A stretch of 64,000 nucleotides of DNA from Aquirufa ecclesiirivi (GTDB taxonomy: Bacteria > Bacteroidota > Bacteroidia > Cytophagales > Spirosomataceae), in NCBI RefSeq assembly GCF_011250515.1, contig NZ_JAANOP010000001.1, positions 248,001 to 312,000 of the forward strand, written 5' to 3'. A program made the translations under genes and the position numbers. The notes under the pieces are model-generated. The model had not been told where the DNA came from. It was given only the letters and a program-made list of their open reading frames with translations, and made no database searches. Below, piece by piece: positions 50,599 through 58,446 of the stretch. Position 1 is the stretch's first letter; each line of letters opens with the position of its first letter.

Positions 50599-51336
50599 TT
50601 ATTGATTTAGGGTTAGGTTCAATGTTTCACGTGAAACATGATGTAAATTCCACTCGAATAACTGCGATAAGTGTGCTAAAACAGCAGACTTTACCTCTTG
50701 AATGTCCATTTCACGACCTAACTCCTGCTGTAAAGAGCTTACGCCTCTGGTGGCGATACCACAAGGAACAATGTGCGAGAAATAAGATAAATCCGTATTC
50801 ACATTAAAAGCAAAACCATGCATACTAATCCAGCGAGAGGCCTTTACGCCTAGAGCACATATTTTTCGAGCATTATTAGATTCAGGATCAATCCATACAC
50901 CTGTTAAACCTTCTATTCTTCCTGCTGTCAATCCGTATTCTTGACAAGTTAAAGTGATTGCTTCTTCTAGCATACGTAAATACAAATGTATATCTGTATA
51001 AAAATTCTCCAAATCCAAAATAGGATAGCCCACTAATTGTCCTGGACCATGATAAGTAATATCTCCACCGCGATTAATCCGATAAAAACTCGCTCCAATG
51101 CTCGCCAAAAATGGCTCTTGCATCAACAAATGTGATTCATCTCCGCTTTTCCCCAAGGTATAAACATGAGGATGCTCACAAAAAAGCAGAAAATTAGGGC
51201 TTTCCTCAACTAATCCCTCGCGACGATTCCTCAATTTTATTTGAGCAATATGATTCAGGAGCGCTTCCTGCAAATCCCACGTTTCTTGGTAAGGGGCTAA
51301 ACCAATATCAACAAATTGAACTTCTTTATTAGGCAT
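50599..51336 (-). CDS. lipB: Octanoyl-[acyl-carrier-protein]:protein octanoyltransferase
   Basis: LipB moves octanoate from acyl carrier protein to lipoyl domains, the first step of lipoate assembly. The 245-residue protein has the family motifs RGGDITYHGPGQLVGYPI, ARKICALGVKASRWISMHG and FNVNTDLSYFSHIVPCGI (catalytic Cys in PCGI). The C-terminus ends HHVSRETLNLTLNQ; its VSRET codons are a perfect parS site (50623-50638). The target glycine-cleavage H protein is consistent with gcvT at 3.3 kb. Confidence 0.95.
   Translation of the reverse strand: MPNKEVQFVDIGLAPYQETWDLQEALLNHIAQIKLRNRREGLVEESPNFLLFCEHPHVYTLGKSGDESHLLMQEPFLASIGASFYRINRGGDITYHGPGQLVGYPILDLENFYTDIHLYLRMLEEAITLTCQEYGLTAGRIEGLTGVWIDPESNNARKICALGVKASRWISMHGFAFNVNTDLSYFSHIVPCGIATRGVSSLQQELGREMDIQEVKSAVLAHLSQLFEWNLHHVSRETLNLTLNQ
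50623..50638. other. parS site 1 (ParB binding), inside lipB
   Basis: TGTTTCACGTGAAACA is a perfect 16-bp palindrome and matches the parS consensus TGTTNCACGTGAAACA known from Bacillus and other bacteria. It is within the last codons of lipB, 6 kb left of the putative origin. Confidence 0.88.
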
Positions 51337-52206: not shown

Positions 52207-52222
52207 TGTTTCACGTGAAACA
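52207..52222. other. parS site 2 (ParB binding), between ybeY and mnmG
   Basis: TGTTTCACGTGAAACA, identical to parS site 1 and a perfect palindrome. It begins 2 bases after the ybeY stop and ends 9 bases before the mnmG start, so mnmG translation signals and ParB binding overlap. It is 4.4 kb left of the putative origin. Confidence 0.88.
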
Positions 52223-52231
52223 AAATAGAAA

Positions 52232-54094
52232 ATGCAACAACAAGCATACGATGTAATTGTAGTAGGAGCGGGGCATGCCGGTTGTGAAGCAGCACATGCT
52301 GCCGCTCAAATGGGATCAAGCGTCTTGCTCATCACCATGAATATGCAAACCATCGCACAAATGTCATGCAACCCGGCTATGGGTGGAGTTGCAAAAGGAC
52401 AAATTGTACGAGAAATTGATGCCCTTGGAGGAATGTCAGGTTTGATATCAGACAAAACCATGATTCAGTTCCGCATGCTAAATCGTTCCAAAGGTCCTGC
52501 CATGTGGTCACCAAGATGCCAATCAGATCGAATGCGCTTTGCAGAAGAGTGGAGAATGGTTTTAGAACAAAATACCAACGTAGATTTCTGGCAAGATTCT
52601 GTTCAACAATTACTGATCAAAAACAACGAGGCCTGTGGAGTAATAACACGCATGGGAATTGAGTTTAAAGCGCGCACCGTAGTACTCACGAATGGGACTT
52701 TTTTAAATGGCTTAATACATATAGGAGAAAAGCATTTTGGGGGAGGACGAATGGCCGAACCCATGGCACAAGGATTAACAGAACAGCTGGTTCAATTAGG
52801 CTTTGAATCGGGGAGAATGAAGACGGGCACGCCGCCCCGAGTAGATGGAAGAAGCCTAGACTATTCAGCGATGGAAGAACAAAAAGGAGATGAAAACCCT
52901 AGCAGTTTTTCCTATTTAACAGAAACCCCCATTCAAGAACAAAGATCTTGCTGGATTACACATACCAATACCAAAGTACACGAAGTACTAAGAAAAGGCT
53001 TTGATAAATCTCCCATGTTTGCCGGTAGAATTAAAGGCCTAGGTCCTAGATATTGCCCATCCGTAGAAGATAAAATTAACCGCTTTGCCGATAAAGATAG
53101 TCACCAAATTTTTGTAGAACCAGAAGGGTGGAATACCGTAGAAATCTATGTGAATGGCTTTTCTACATCCCTTCCCGAAGAGATACAATATGAGGCCATT
53201 CGACTTATCCCAGGCTTCGAAAAAGCTAAACTTTTTAGGCCCGGTTATGCCATCGAATACGATTACTTTCCACCAACCCAATTACAAGCAACCCTAGAAA
53301 CTAAACTAATTCAAGGACTCTATTTTGCAGGACAAATAAATGGAACAACAGGTTACGAAGAAGCCGCTTGTCAAGGACTTATGGCAGGGATCAATGCCCA
53401 CCAAAAAGCAAAACAATTAGACCCATTCACTCTCTCCAGATCGGATGCCTATATCGGAGTTTTGATAGATGACCTAATCAACAAAGGCACCGACGAGCCC
53501 TACCGTATGTTTACTTCACGAGCTGAATTTAGAACGCTTTTGAGACAAGATAATGCGGATGAAAGATTAACAGTAAAAGGTTATGAATTAGGCCTTGCTA
53601 CAAAAAAACGCATGGATAAATTCCAACAAAAGCAAAGCGATGTTGCCCGATTACTTGACCATATTAAAACAAGTAAAGTAAAGCCTGACGAGATGAATAC
53701 TTGGCTAGAAAATCAAGGCAGCTCAAGCCTGAGAGAAGGAACACCCATTGTCAATCTACTGAGACGATCAGACCTAAGCTTCTCCGCATTATTACAACAT
53801 CCATTGATTCAGCATATTCAAGAAACGTATTCCCAAGAAGTCATCGAACAAGCTGAAATCATCGTGAAATACGAAAGCTATATCGAAAAAGAAAGGCTGA
53901 TGGTAGATAAAATGAAAACCATGGAAGATTTGAAAATTCCAGATACTTTCGACTACGACAAAATTAAAACACTCTCCACCGAATCTAGAATTAAATTAAA
54001 ATCCATCCGACCACAAACCATTGGTCAGGCTAGCAGAATATCAGGAGTATCTGCATCCGATGTATCCATTCTACTTTTATTCATGGGTCGATAA
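52232..54094 (+). CDS. mnmG: tRNA uridine-5-carboxymethylaminomethyl modification enzyme MnmG
   Basis: MnmG (GidA) works with MnmE to place the cmnm5 group on U34 of several tRNAs, using FAD. The 620-residue protein has the FAD motif VIVVGAGHAGCEAAHAAA, CNPAMGGVAKGQIVREIDALGG, MKTGTPPRVDGR, FAGQINGTTGYEEAA and FTSRAEFRTLLRQDNAD. The length is typical. In many bacteria this gene lies beside oriC, in agreement with the origin-like gap at 56.6 kb and the parS sites. Confidence 0.97.
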   Translation: MQQQAYDVIVVGAGHAGCEAAHAAAQMGSSVLLITMNMQTIAQMSCNPAMGGVAKGQIVREIDALGGMSGLISDKTMIQFRMLNRSKGPAMWSPRCQSDRMRFAEEWRMVLEQNTNVDFWQDSVQQLLIKNNEACGVITRMGIEFKARTVVLTNGTFLNGLIHIGEKHFGGGRMAEPMAQGLTEQLVQLGFESGRMKTGTPPRVDGRSLDYSAMEEQKGDENPSSFSYLTETPIQEQRSCWITHTNTKVHEVLRKGFDKSPMFAGRIKGLGPRYCPSVEDKINRFADKDSHQIFVEPEGWNTVEIYVNGFSTSLPEEIQYEAIRLIPGFEKAKLFRPGYAIEYDYFPPTQLQATLETKLIQGLYFAGQINGTTGYEEAACQGLMAGINAHQKAKQLDPFTLSRSDAYIGVLIDDLINKGTDEPYRMFTSRAEFRTLLRQDNADERLTVKGYELGLATKKRMDKFQQKQSDVARLLDHIKTSKVKPDEMNTWLENQGSSSLREGTPIVNLLRRSDLSFSALLQHPLIQHIQETYSQEVIEQAEIIVKYESYIEKERLMVDKMKTMEDLKIPDTFDYDKIKTLSTESRIKLKSIRPQTIGQASRISGVSASDVSILLLFMGR

Positions 54095-54096
54095 TT

Positions 54097-54984
54097 ATGG
54101 AAAAACTAGAAGAATGCCCCGCTTGCTCAAACAAAGAATTTATGATAATTCTGAGTGCCAAAGATTACACAGTTTCGCATCAGACATTCCAAGTGATGGA
54201 ATGCCAAAGCTGTCATTTACGCTTTACAAACCCAAGACCCAAAGCAAGTGAAGCGGGGCCCTATTACAAATCAGAAAACTACATTTCTCATAGTAATACA
54301 GAAAAAGGTTTCATAAACCAATTGTATCAACGGGTAAGAAATATCACCCTGAAACTAAAAACCAATTGGATAGAATCAGAGAAAAAGGGTGACAAAAACA
54401 TATTAGATATAGGCTGTGGTACGGGACATTTCCTTCAAGCTTGTCAAGAAAGAGGATGGCACATTCATGGCATGGAACTAGATCCAAGTACTGCTCAAAA
54501 AGCAGCACAATTAACAGGTAAATCAATCTATCCTCATTTAACCCATATTCCAGAATCAGATACCTTTCAAGTCATTAGCCTTTGGCATGTACTTGAACAC
54601 GTCTATGAAATACATGAGTACTTTACTTTCTTTAAAAAGAACTTAGCTCCTAATGGTAAATTGTTATTGGCTTTACCCAATTGCAACAGCTACGATGCTC
54701 AATACTTTCAAGAATACTGGGCAGCATATGATGTACCAAGGCATATTTATCATTTTACACCAGAAACAATACAAGCCATAGCCAAACAATATGGATTCTC
54801 ATTAAAAGAAAAAAAAGGTTTAATTTTTGATAGTTTTTACATTTCCTTAATGAGCCATGAATACCAAAGAGGTTCTAAAAAAATAATTTTATCCTTTATC
54901 ATAGGTCTCTTTTCAAATATCAAAGCCTACTTAGGGAAAGGAAATTATTCCAGTAATTTATATATCTTCGAACATGCTCAGTAG
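54097..54984 (+). CDS. Class I SAM-dependent methyltransferase with N-terminal zinc ribbon
   Basis: The 295-residue protein begins with a zinc-ribbon-like double CxxC (ECPACSNKEF and ECQSCHLRFTNP). The methyltransferase domain (about 95-205) has the SAM motif ILDIGCGTGHFLQAC, followed by DTFQVISLWHVLEHV. This architecture is common for Methyltransf_23-type enzymes acting on sugars or lipids, but the substrate is unknown. It is 2 bp after mnmG and overlaps the next gene by 11 bases. Confidence 0.88.
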   Translation: MEKLEECPACSNKEFMIILSAKDYTVSHQTFQVMECQSCHLRFTNPRPKASEAGPYYKSENYISHSNTEKGFINQLYQRVRNITLKLKTNWIESEKKGDKNILDIGCGTGHFLQACQERGWHIHGMELDPSTAQKAAQLTGKSIYPHLTHIPESDTFQVISLWHVLEHVYEIHEYFTFFKKNLAPNGKLLLALPNCNSYDAQYFQEYWAAYDVPRHIYHFTPETIQAIAKQYGFSLKEKKGLIFDSFYISLMSHEYQRGSKKIILSFIIGLFSNIKAYLGKGNYSSNLYIFEHAQ

Positions 54985-56617
54985 GCTAAAAAACATAATA
55001 CTATTTACCTTTTTATCGGGAATGTTTATCGTTCTGATCCTACAAAGTTGTGCCCAAATGGCTAACCCTCCCGGAGGAAAAAAAGATACCCTTGCCCCAA
55101 AAATCAGTGAATCCATTCCACTAAATAAAAGCCGAAATTTTAAAGGGAAAAAAATCGAACTTACATTTAACGAGTATGTAGGAATTAGAAACCTAAATCA
55201 AGAACTGTTAATAACACCTTCGGTAGGAACCTATCAAACAAAAATAAGACCTCAAGGTCTTAGCATTGTTTTAGATAGTTCTCTAAAAGATAATACCACC
55301 TATACCTTCAATTTTAGAAATGCCATAGAAGATGCCTCAGAAAGAAATATCGGTAAAAATATCAAACTGGTTTTTAGTACTTCCAATGATATAGACTCAC
55401 TACAAATCAAAGGAAATGTCAAGCAATTAATGACACAGAAACATCCTGAAAATATATTAGTGGCGCTTTATCCTTGGAATGACACCCTATCCATTCAGCT
55501 TACAAAACCATATTATTTCGTTAAAACAGATACGTCTGGAAATTACCTCTTAGAAAACATTGCCCGAGGGAAATACTACATGGCGGCATTTAACGACATC
55601 AATAATAACTTACTGTATAATTCCAATAGAGAAGCAGTGGATTTCATTTCTGAAAAATACATTGATTTAGTTAAAAATCAAGAGCAACATTTTGCTATAA
55701 GTATTCAAAATCAAGATTCATTGAAGCTAAGCAAAACAACCGCTACAGCTAAAACGGTTTTGTACGAATTTAACCGAGGAATCAAATCCATGGTTCTTCA
55801 AAATGTACCCAAGTCTCAACTATACTACCAACAAGAAGACAACAAAAACCTTAGATTCTACGTCTTAAATCAAAGCAGCTCAGACACCATCTTCGTTCAA
55901 GCAACAATGACCGATTCATTGGACAGAAAATATCAAATTCCATTAAAAATAAAATTTAGAGAAATTACCAAAAAAGAAAAAATTCAAAAGCTAGATCTAA
56001 ACTTTGAAGTAAAGCCTGCACCAGGAAAATTACTCTCTCCTTCAGACTCTGTACAAATAAAATTTACAAGGCCAGTACAACAATGGGTATCAACCAATTT
56101 ACTATTTAAAACAGAAGAAGGCGAAACCCTTACTTTACCTGATCAAGCTTTCCAATGGAATCAATATCAAAACAATTTAATAATCAGAAACACCTATTTA
56201 CCTAGTAGAACAAAATTCGAATTAAACATTTTAAAAAATGCATTTGTTGGTGTAGAAGCTGATTCCAGTCAAGCATACACACAAAAGATGGAATGGCAAG
56301 ATGTTGAAAATTACGGAAGTATTGATGGTCAGGTTTCAAGTCTAGCAACAAATAGTCACTTTATAGTAGAATTAATTAAAGCTGATACATTTGAGCCATA
56401 CATGACCATTAAAACCATGAAGCGCTTTGAATTTATCCACGTGGAACCTGGAATCTATCAAATCCGAGTTATTGCAGATCTTAACAACAATGGGTATTGG
56501 GACATCGGTAATTTCAAACTTAGAAAAAAATCAGAACCCGTGTATTTCTTTGAAGGTAAAATAAAGCTGAAGGCTAATTTTCAGATTTCTGATTTGTTGA
56601 TAAATACACAAAAATAG
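54974..56617 (+). CDS. Ig-like (Big_5) domain lipoprotein
   Basis: The 547-residue protein has a lipoprotein signal (FIVLILQSCAQ; lipobox Cys about 26) followed by an Ig-like Big_5 domain (about 40-135, KISESIPLNKSRNFKGKKIELTFNEYV). Later beta-rich regions include one ending in DLNNNGYWDIG. It is probably anchored in the outer membrane. Such proteins are widespread in Bacteroidota with unknown function. It ends one base before the putative origin, so it is the last gene on the left arm. Confidence 0.85.
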   Translation: MLSRLKNIILFTFLSGMFIVLILQSCAQMANPPGGKKDTLAPKISESIPLNKSRNFKGKKIELTFNEYVGIRNLNQELLITPSVGTYQTKIRPQGLSIVLDSSLKDNTTYTFNFRNAIEDASERNIGKNIKLVFSTSNDIDSLQIKGNVKQLMTQKHPENILVALYPWNDTLSIQLTKPYYFVKTDTSGNYLLENIARGKYYMAAFNDINNNLLYNSNREAVDFISEKYIDLVKNQEQHFAISIQNQDSLKLSKTTATAKTVLYEFNRGIKSMVLQNVPKSQLYYQQEDNKNLRFYVLNQSSSDTIFVQATMTDSLDRKYQIPLKIKFREITKKEKIQKLDLNFEVKPAPGKLLSPSDSVQIKFTRPVQQWVSTNLLFKTEEGETLTLPDQAFQWNQYQNNLIIRNTYLPSRTKFELNILKNAFVGVEADSSQAYTQKMEWQDVENYGSIDGQVSSLATNSHFIVELIKADTFEPYMTIKTMKRFEFIHVEPGIYQIRVIADLNNNGYWDIGNFKLRKKSEPVYFFEGKIKLKANFQISDLLINTQK

Positions 56618-56890
56618 TGTGGATAACCTGTTCATAAGTGGGCAAAAAAGTGAACAATTCATAAGAAAATTGTGGAAAGAATTTTAGAGAACAAAGTTGT
56701 GGACAATATTACCGAAGTATCCACAGAGTTTTTTAAACTTATCTACATAAATAAACTAAGTAAAAAATATATATATAATTTATTATCAGATAGTTATATA
56801 TCAAAAAATGTCTTATCCACTTATCCACAGTGAATAACAATAAGAAACAAAAAAGAGATTTATAAAACTTTTATTTTTTTTAAATAAGTC
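56618..56890. other. Putative chromosomal replication origin (oriC)
   Basis: This gene-free 273-bp stretch holds two perfect DnaA boxes: TGTGGATAA (56618-56626) and TTATCCACA (56821-56829). Near matches are TGTGGAAAG (56671), TGTGGACAA (56698), GTATCCACA (56717), TTATCTACA (56739) and TTATCCACT (56813, abutting the perfect box). Between about 56748 and 56810 is an almost pure AT tract of alternating TA, as expected of a DNA-unwinding element. A second AT-rich stretch reaches the next ATG. parS sites are 4.4 and 6 kb to the left and mnmG is close by. The dnaA gene is not in the window. Confidence 0.9.
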
Positions 56891-58408
56891 ATGTGGAAAA
56901 CATTTTCTAAATCTTTTTTATTTCTCGCATTCCTACTAGTAGGTTATGGTCTTCCTTTGCAGGCTAGTGCATTTATAAAAAGTCCAGATTCTTTATTTGT
57001 AGATAGACTACATCAAATTCTTGCCATTAAGAAAGAAAAGAAAAGGACTAAACAGTTAGAAGAATTGTTTATAAAAAACACGAATAATGGTTCTTTTTTA
57101 ACATTTTATTCCTTTAATGAAATCATTAAAGGAAATTTAGCACCTTTATGGATTAAGTATTGTGGACAAATTGTTGATAAGTTAGTCAATACACAAGGCT
57201 TAGAAGTAGCGAAAGATTGGTTAATTGGCTTAAAAGATCAGGGGATTGCTAATCGAGAAGTAGAGCAAATGCTTGTTTTATTGATACAATCTAATCCTGA
57301 ACAGGGCAATCCTGTCGAATTAATCATTCATTGGTATGCTTTAAATCAACAATGGGAAAAAGTTTGGATGCAGAGAAAGGCATTGGATATCCGTTTTAAA
57401 ACCGGAGGAAAGGAAGTTAATGATTTTGGTATTGCTTGTTTTCAACGTCAACAATGGCCTTTAGTAAATCAAGTATTTGATTATTTGATTAAAACATACC
57501 CTCGTTCCCCACAATTGTTGAATTGGAAACAATTAGTATTAGCTTCTCGCGAACAAAGCATACAGAACAAGATGGTGATTGAAAAAACGGAGTTTTCAAA
57601 TTTAATTCAATCCTATCGAGAGCTAAGAAAAGACCGAGGAAATAATCCTGGGACTGCTGAGACCTATTTATCTGAAGCCAGAATATTTCTGTATCAATTA
57701 AATCAATTGGATTCAGCTGAACAGGTTTATCAAAAGGGGATTGAGTTATCTGAGTTCAATGTCAATTTACAAGCACAGATGAAATTGGAGTTAGGAGATG
57801 TGTATTTATATGCTGGTAGAAAATACGATGCATTACTTCAATATGCCCAAGTGGAGAAATTAGTTAAAGATTCACCGATAGCTTATGAAGCTAAATTGAA
57901 GACGGGTAAATTATACTATTATTCGGGGGATTTCGAATTAGCAAAAGCCAATTTTGATGTATTAAAACAAAGTACTCAAAAAGAAATTGCCAATGATGCC
58001 TTGCATTTAAGTTGGGTTATTGAAGACAATACGGGCATAGATACTTTGGAAACGGCTTTAAAATCATTTGCTACGATTCAATGGCTATATGAACAAAAGA
58101 AAGTGCAAGAAGCCGATAAGGCCTTGGATGAATTATTTAAAAATCAAAAAGGCCAGAGTTTAGAAGATGATATCTTGTATCAAATGGCTCAAAGGTCATT
58201 AGAAAAAAAGCAAGTAGAACAAGCCAAAATTTTATTTAAAGATATTTATGATCGATTTGATCAAGATATATACGGTGATGATGCACTATTTCACTTTTTA
58301 CAATTAACCGATTTTAGAGACAAGGATTTAGCTTTACAATTCATTACCAAGTATCCAAGTAGTATCTATTTACACGATATTCGTAAGCACATAGCTGTCC
58401 CTGAATGA
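56891..58408 (+). CDS. Exported TPR-repeat protein
   Basis: The 505-residue protein has a signal peptide (residues about 1-26, SFLFLAFLLVGYGLPLQA) and is helical throughout, with TPR-like pairs: QMKLELGDVYLYAGRKYDALLQYAQ (over about 295-320) and LKTGKLYYYSGDFELAKANF (about 340-360). It is probably periplasmic and may mediate protein assembly. It is the first gene to the right of the origin; its relation to replication, if any, is unknown. The coding strand is visibly richer in G than in genes left of the origin. Confidence 0.8.
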   Translation: MWKTFSKSFLFLAFLLVGYGLPLQASAFIKSPDSLFVDRLHQILAIKKEKKRTKQLEELFIKNTNNGSFLTFYSFNEIIKGNLAPLWIKYCGQIVDKLVNTQGLEVAKDWLIGLKDQGIANREVEQMLVLLIQSNPEQGNPVELIIHWYALNQQWEKVWMQRKALDIRFKTGGKEVNDFGIACFQRQQWPLVNQVFDYLIKTYPRSPQLLNWKQLVLASREQSIQNKMVIEKTEFSNLIQSYRELRKDRGNNPGTAETYLSEARIFLYQLNQLDSAEQVYQKGIELSEFNVNLQAQMKLELGDVYLYAGRKYDALLQYAQVEKLVKDSPIAYEAKLKTGKLYYYSGDFELAKANFDVLKQSTQKEIANDALHLSWVIEDNTGIDTLETALKSFATIQWLYEQKKVQEADKALDELFKNQKGQSLEDDILYQMAQRSLEKKQVEQAKILFKDIYDRFDQDIYGDDALFHFLQLTDFRDKDLALQFITKYPSSIYLHDIRKHIAVPE

Positions 58409-58446
58409 TATATACTAAATCCTAAAAAATAATCCAATTCTCACAT

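Follow-up and report, generated by a model that had tools for sequence, protein, structure and literature searches.

A predicted chromosomal replication origin in a 273-bp intergenic gap downstream of mnmG in Aquirufa ecclesiirivi

Where does chromosome replication start in Aquirufa ecclesiirivi, and might it start in a short gap between two protein genes, on a contig without dnaA? We addressed this question in a window of 64,000 nucleotides, the whole stretch of DNA that was analysed (C11:248001-312000), which belongs to a 766-kb contig, C11, of a draft genome (36 contigs, 3.12 Mb in total). The gap had been noted in a first-pass annotation as 273 bp long and gene-free, and this size matches the open reading frame list exactly, the flanking frames ending at 56617 and starting at 56891. 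The gap is 76% AT, and a search for RNA genes and tRNAs in and near 56618-56890 found none. To its left lies mnmG, whose end is 2.5 kb away, with a methyltransferase gene and the Ig-like gene in between.

56618..56890, no strand: gap, the proposed oriC (ORF list, box statistics, contig skew minimum)
52232..54094, plus strand: mnmG (gidA), PF01134, E 1.2e-165
54974..56617, plus strand: Big_5 (Ig-like) domain protein, left neighbour of the gap, PF13205
56891..58408, plus strand: TPR-like protein, right neighbour of the gap, TPR models below their cut-offs

From the sequence evidence we predict that the gap is the chromosomal origin, oriC, with a probability of roughly 0.94. This prediction rests on a cluster of DnaA boxes, AT-rich flanks, the skew minimum of the contig, a nearby pair of parS sites, conservation in the genus and a complete DnaA encoded elsewhere in the genome. 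The boxes with at most one mismatch are the following:

56595..56603, minus strand: DnaA box, one mismatch, within the end of the left gene, outside the gap
56618..56626, minus strand: perfect DnaA box, immediately following the stop codon of the Big_5 gene on the left
56698..56706, minus strand: DnaA box, one mismatch
56717..56725, plus strand: DnaA box, one mismatch
56739..56747, plus strand: DnaA box, one mismatch
56813..56829, plus strand: tandem DnaA boxes with 8-bp pitch (one-mismatch box 56813-56821, perfect box 56821-56829)
56892..56900, minus strand: DnaA box, one mismatch, at the start of the right gene, outside the gap

The two perfect boxes reported earlier at 56618 and 56821 are both present, and so is the tandem pair at 56813-56829. 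Five near matches had been counted as well; only four one-mismatch boxes lie within the gap (56698, 56717, 56739, 56813), giving six boxes with at most one mismatch, two of them perfect. Boxes with two mismatches occur at 56629, 56671 and 56829. Dinucleotide shuffles of the gap contained on average 0.002 perfect boxes and 0.118 boxes with at most one mismatch, and none of 2000 equalled either observed count. No other 273-bp stretch of the window is as dense in DnaA boxes, and elsewhere in the genome, over 250 kb of sampled sequence, the background is 0.42 boxes per kb with at most 3 per 273 bp. Since the genome has 50 perfect boxes in total, compared with 40 matches to a reversed control pattern, the signal is the clustering of boxes and not their number. 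At least two perfect boxes within 300 bp are found at three places in the genome, namely the gap and two sites on contig C36.

Cumulative GC skew along C11, sampled as 36 5-kb stretches together with 8 segments into which the window was divided, falls from the contig start to ~304 kb, which corresponds to ~56 kb in the window, and rises beyond; this is the lowest of the 44 segments. A skew minimum at about 56.6-56.9 kb had been proposed as a check on the origin, and it is borne out on the 766-kb contig; in this draft of 36 unordered contigs, the curve covers C11 and not the whole chromosome. Inside the window, the base-by-base G-C minimum is at 56202, i.e. 416 bp left of the gap, and the keto-amino minimum is at 58445, outside the gap. 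Six other contigs sampled for skew had no minimum comparable to that of C11. Skew was positive in 9 of 11 stretches on C31, negative in 15 of 17 on C26 and in 4 of 4 on C32, and mixed and shallow on C19, C35 and C36.

We also took coarse skew samples from three relatives assembled as single contigs (G007, G028 and G033), and in none of them does the lowest cumulative skew fall at the homologous place. In G007, a member of the same genus read in 40 samples, skew changes sign at the site, from negative to positive, yet a lower minimum lies near 0.2-0.26 Mb. This chromosome (G007:C1) shows two skew minima and two maxima, a pattern as seen after a large inversion or a misassembly; that one of these caused the double minimum is our guess. 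G028 has a weak and local turn only at the homologous place and its lowest value near 2.0-2.5 Mb, and G033 has neither a skew minimum nor a box cluster beside mnmG. The skew of these relatives is not decisive and leaves the site without confirmation.

Two sites related to chromosome segregation lie close to the gap:

50623..50638, no strand: perfect parS palindrome
52207..52222, no strand: perfect parS palindrome, just upstream of mnmG

When the whole 3.12-Mb draft was searched for the parS pattern TGTTNCACGTGNAACA with at most one mismatch, three sites were found. These two are the only perfect ones and both lie left of the gap, at 4.4 and 6.0 kb; the third, with one mismatch, is on C31. Together with the skew minimum of C11, the only two perfect parS sites of the genome, both within 6.0 kb and an independent marker that the first-pass annotation had not drawn on, support the earlier reading of the gap as chromosomal origin. 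A plasmid collection searched with 55800-57700 returned no match.

The position of parS next to mnmG extends beyond this species. Of the best 80 of 588 Bacteroidota mnmG loci, 54 carry a parS site with at most two mismatches in the 250 bp upstream of the gene, compared with 11 of 1484 control segments; part of the 26 loci without it have little or no upstream sequence. In these same best 80 of 588 loci a second parS is often found just downstream of mnmG. An open-literature search for parS directly upstream of mnmG found no paper.

Within the genus the box cluster is well conserved. We compared 25 genomes including the one under study, and the gap was readable in 20; in the other five a contig end intervened, or mnmG was not found or was present as a fragment only. 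A tandem pair, as defined here, is in the gap in all 20 readable genomes, with identical 17 letters in 16 of them, and the clusters hold 6 to 13 boxes. In eight genomes the right-hand TPR gene has no match anywhere and the next gene (AMP-binding) directly follows the gap. Five of these eight assemblies are incomplete (83-86%, one 73%), but the gene replacement is visible in the read stretch itself. Cluster and right flank are kept in 8/8, so that the cluster is not merely the promoter of the TPR gene.

Beyond the genus conservation becomes patchy. Among named mnmG loci (the best 80 of 588), 13 have a cluster 2-3 kb downstream of mnmG (L071-L073, L075-L079, L081-L083, L088 and L097), 2 have one elsewhere and 65 have none by this box definition; a cluster was called at a score of at least 5, a threshold set after the scores were seen, and L071 and the genome G013, whose contigs agree in length (576707), are probably one genome. 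In genomes of other families of the same order, read beside mnmG, a cluster was found in 2 of 12 (G028 and G032). In G037 the cluster adjoins the TPR gene and is on another contig.

How might initiation proceed at the predicted origin? ATP-DnaA would fill the boxes between 56618 and 56829, and the tandem pair beside the unwinding element would act as anchor. DNA would then open in one AT-rich flank, where DnaA could hold one strand, so that the helicase would be loaded and two forks would leave. ParB bound to the parS pair, 4.4-6.0 kb from the gap, might organise the newly copied origin region. Two flanks come into question for the opening step:

56747..56806, no strand: left AT-rich flank, candidate unwinding element, least stable 60-mer of the window
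56830..56892, no strand: right AT-rich flank, candidate unwinding element, its 60-mer from 56833 ranking second in instability among the separate 60-mers of the window

On either side of the tandem boxes there is thus one of the two separate 60-mers with the lowest stability in the window (starts 56747 and 56833). The left flank had been described as an AT-only tract at about 56748-56810; it is actually 89% AT, and its longest AT-only run measures 26 bp (56761-56786). Its earlier assignment as the unwinding element agrees with its low stability, but the right flank is better conserved. Averaged over 30 columns on each side of the tandem boxes, the 20 genomes give 1.53 bits on the right and 1.10 on the left, with 12 and 3 invariant columns, respectively (Mann-Whitney p = 0.002, merely indicative because the columns were compared without gaps, the rows are related, and neither rows nor columns are independent). 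In the eight genomes without the TPR gene the values are 1.84 bits on the right and 1.46 on the left. On the minus strand of the right flank, TTGT and TTATT are located 5' of TGTGGATAA; within 60 nt of this box TTGT occurs in 20/20 and TTATT in 12/20 same-genus genomes, both as raw counts. A role of TTGT/TTATT motifs in unwinding elements is described in the available part of PMC10316083. Taken together, we regard it as moderately probable from these sequence comparisons that DNA opens in the right AT-rich flank rather than the left.

The best surviving alternative keeps the origin in the gap and lets unwinding start in the left AT tract, 56747-56806, in the manner of B. subtilis, where tandem boxes stand next to DnaA-trios. 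The trios have a defined polarity relative to the box, from which the expected reading of the triplets follows. In this reading we found 3 NAN triplets in a row, which is not above chance, as 1459 of 2000 shuffles reach the same run. In addition, the left flank shows weaker conservation, and its AT content within the genus is only 65-88%. For a left-hand opening speaks that no other 60-mer of the window is less stable than this tract, and also that the better match of the tandem boxes is the distal one, the arrangement called most frequent for the B. subtilis system in PMC8287927. We consider opening on the left possible but somewhat doubtful. For opening on the right, a tentative extension would be that the genus-wide unwinding element right of the tandem boxes consists of conserved A-rich triplet repeats (AAC/AAT/AAG type) whose T-rich complement is read by DnaA as in E. 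coli. With the parS directly upstream of mnmG it might form a parS-mnmG-oriC segregation and initiation module, the parS-mnmG part of which might extend across much of Bacteroidota.

The other places in the genome that could be thought of as origin are dnaA and contig C36. That dnaA is absent from the window had been noted before and is correct: the genome has a single match to it, on contig C19, where the encoded DnaA is complete with three domains (PF11638, PF00308, PF08299). The ParB-family gene is also on C19 (C19:345152), as a single copy 9 kb from dnaA. An origin at dnaA was rejected, as no DnaA-box cluster was found in 20 kb around the gene and skew on C19 is mixed and shallow. A second cluster was observed at C36:45562-45792 (locus L151, 9562-9792), with 5 boxes, 4 of them perfect. 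It sits between an HTH gene and a gene for a PRA-PH (MazG-like) pyrophosphohydrolase, followed by a two-component pair, and at least 3 boxes are present in all 11 same-genus loci with upstream sequence, the own one included. Possibly it serves DnaA titration or the control of a nucleotide-pool gene by DnaA. An origin at this cluster was rejected as well, the local skew turning from plus to minus, the wrong way, and no parS being present there. The same contig carries two perfect boxes 215 bp apart at C36:66009-66232.

It is very improbable that the gap itself serves to bind DnaA for regulation or titration, in the way of datA or of a promoter under DnaA control, with the true origin elsewhere, e.g. 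at dnaA: the C36 cluster demonstrates that extra-origin clusters exist in this genome and holds more perfect boxes than the gap, but the skew minimum and both perfect parS sites are found at the gap, as would not be expected of an extra-origin (datA-like) cluster, local skew at the C36 cluster has the opposite sense, the 20 kb around dnaA show no box cluster, and the gap cluster outlasts the loss of its right-hand gene.

The gap is very probably an origin and, given that origins on the mnmG side have already been predicted in relatives, mostly an ordinary find. Automatic annotation tends to place origins at dnaA; in this lineage, which has been little studied, the origin would lie well away from that gene. 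The gap also offers a compact and conserved origin for asking which flank opens, and by which contact between DnaA and the strand. Our open-literature search on Bacteroidota origins returned computed predictions and found no experimental origin study.

Compared with the basal unwinding system of B. subtilis (boxes plus DnaA-trios), the gap likewise has tandem boxes beside an AT-rich flank, the difference being its trio run at chance level. The origin of Escherichia coli (L313) is also near mnmG, and it has a perfect TGTGGATAA box beside an AT-rich element with TTGT/TTATT 5' of the box on the same strand, an order that recurs on the minus strand of the right flank. The gap differs from the E. 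coli origin in that 8 of 20 same-genus genomes lack TTATT, and in its position between unrelated genes, at a distance of 2.5 kb from mnmG. The closest known cases are in Flavobacteriaceae, where Ori-Finder predicted mnmG-side origins in Mariniflexile litorale and Algorimicrobium (Ori-Finder 2022; PMC11278836, PMC12843772, as far as these texts were available). The accessible text of PMC11278836 states that dnaA did not fit the skew, and one of its figure legends swaps the ori and ter labels relative to the text; the available part of Ori-Finder 2022 notes that origins may also lie at a distance from dnaA. In most of the Flavobacteria-type loci that we scanned, a search up to 10 kb from mnmG found no TTATCCACA cluster. 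As far as the available parts of these sources go, the gap shares with the Flavobacteriaceae predictions a place in Bacteroidota, an origin beside mnmG and not at dnaA (stated for Mariniflexile) and support by GC skew; unlike them, it is separated from the end of mnmG by 2.5 kb with a methyltransferase and an Ig-like gene, and it has the support of parS.
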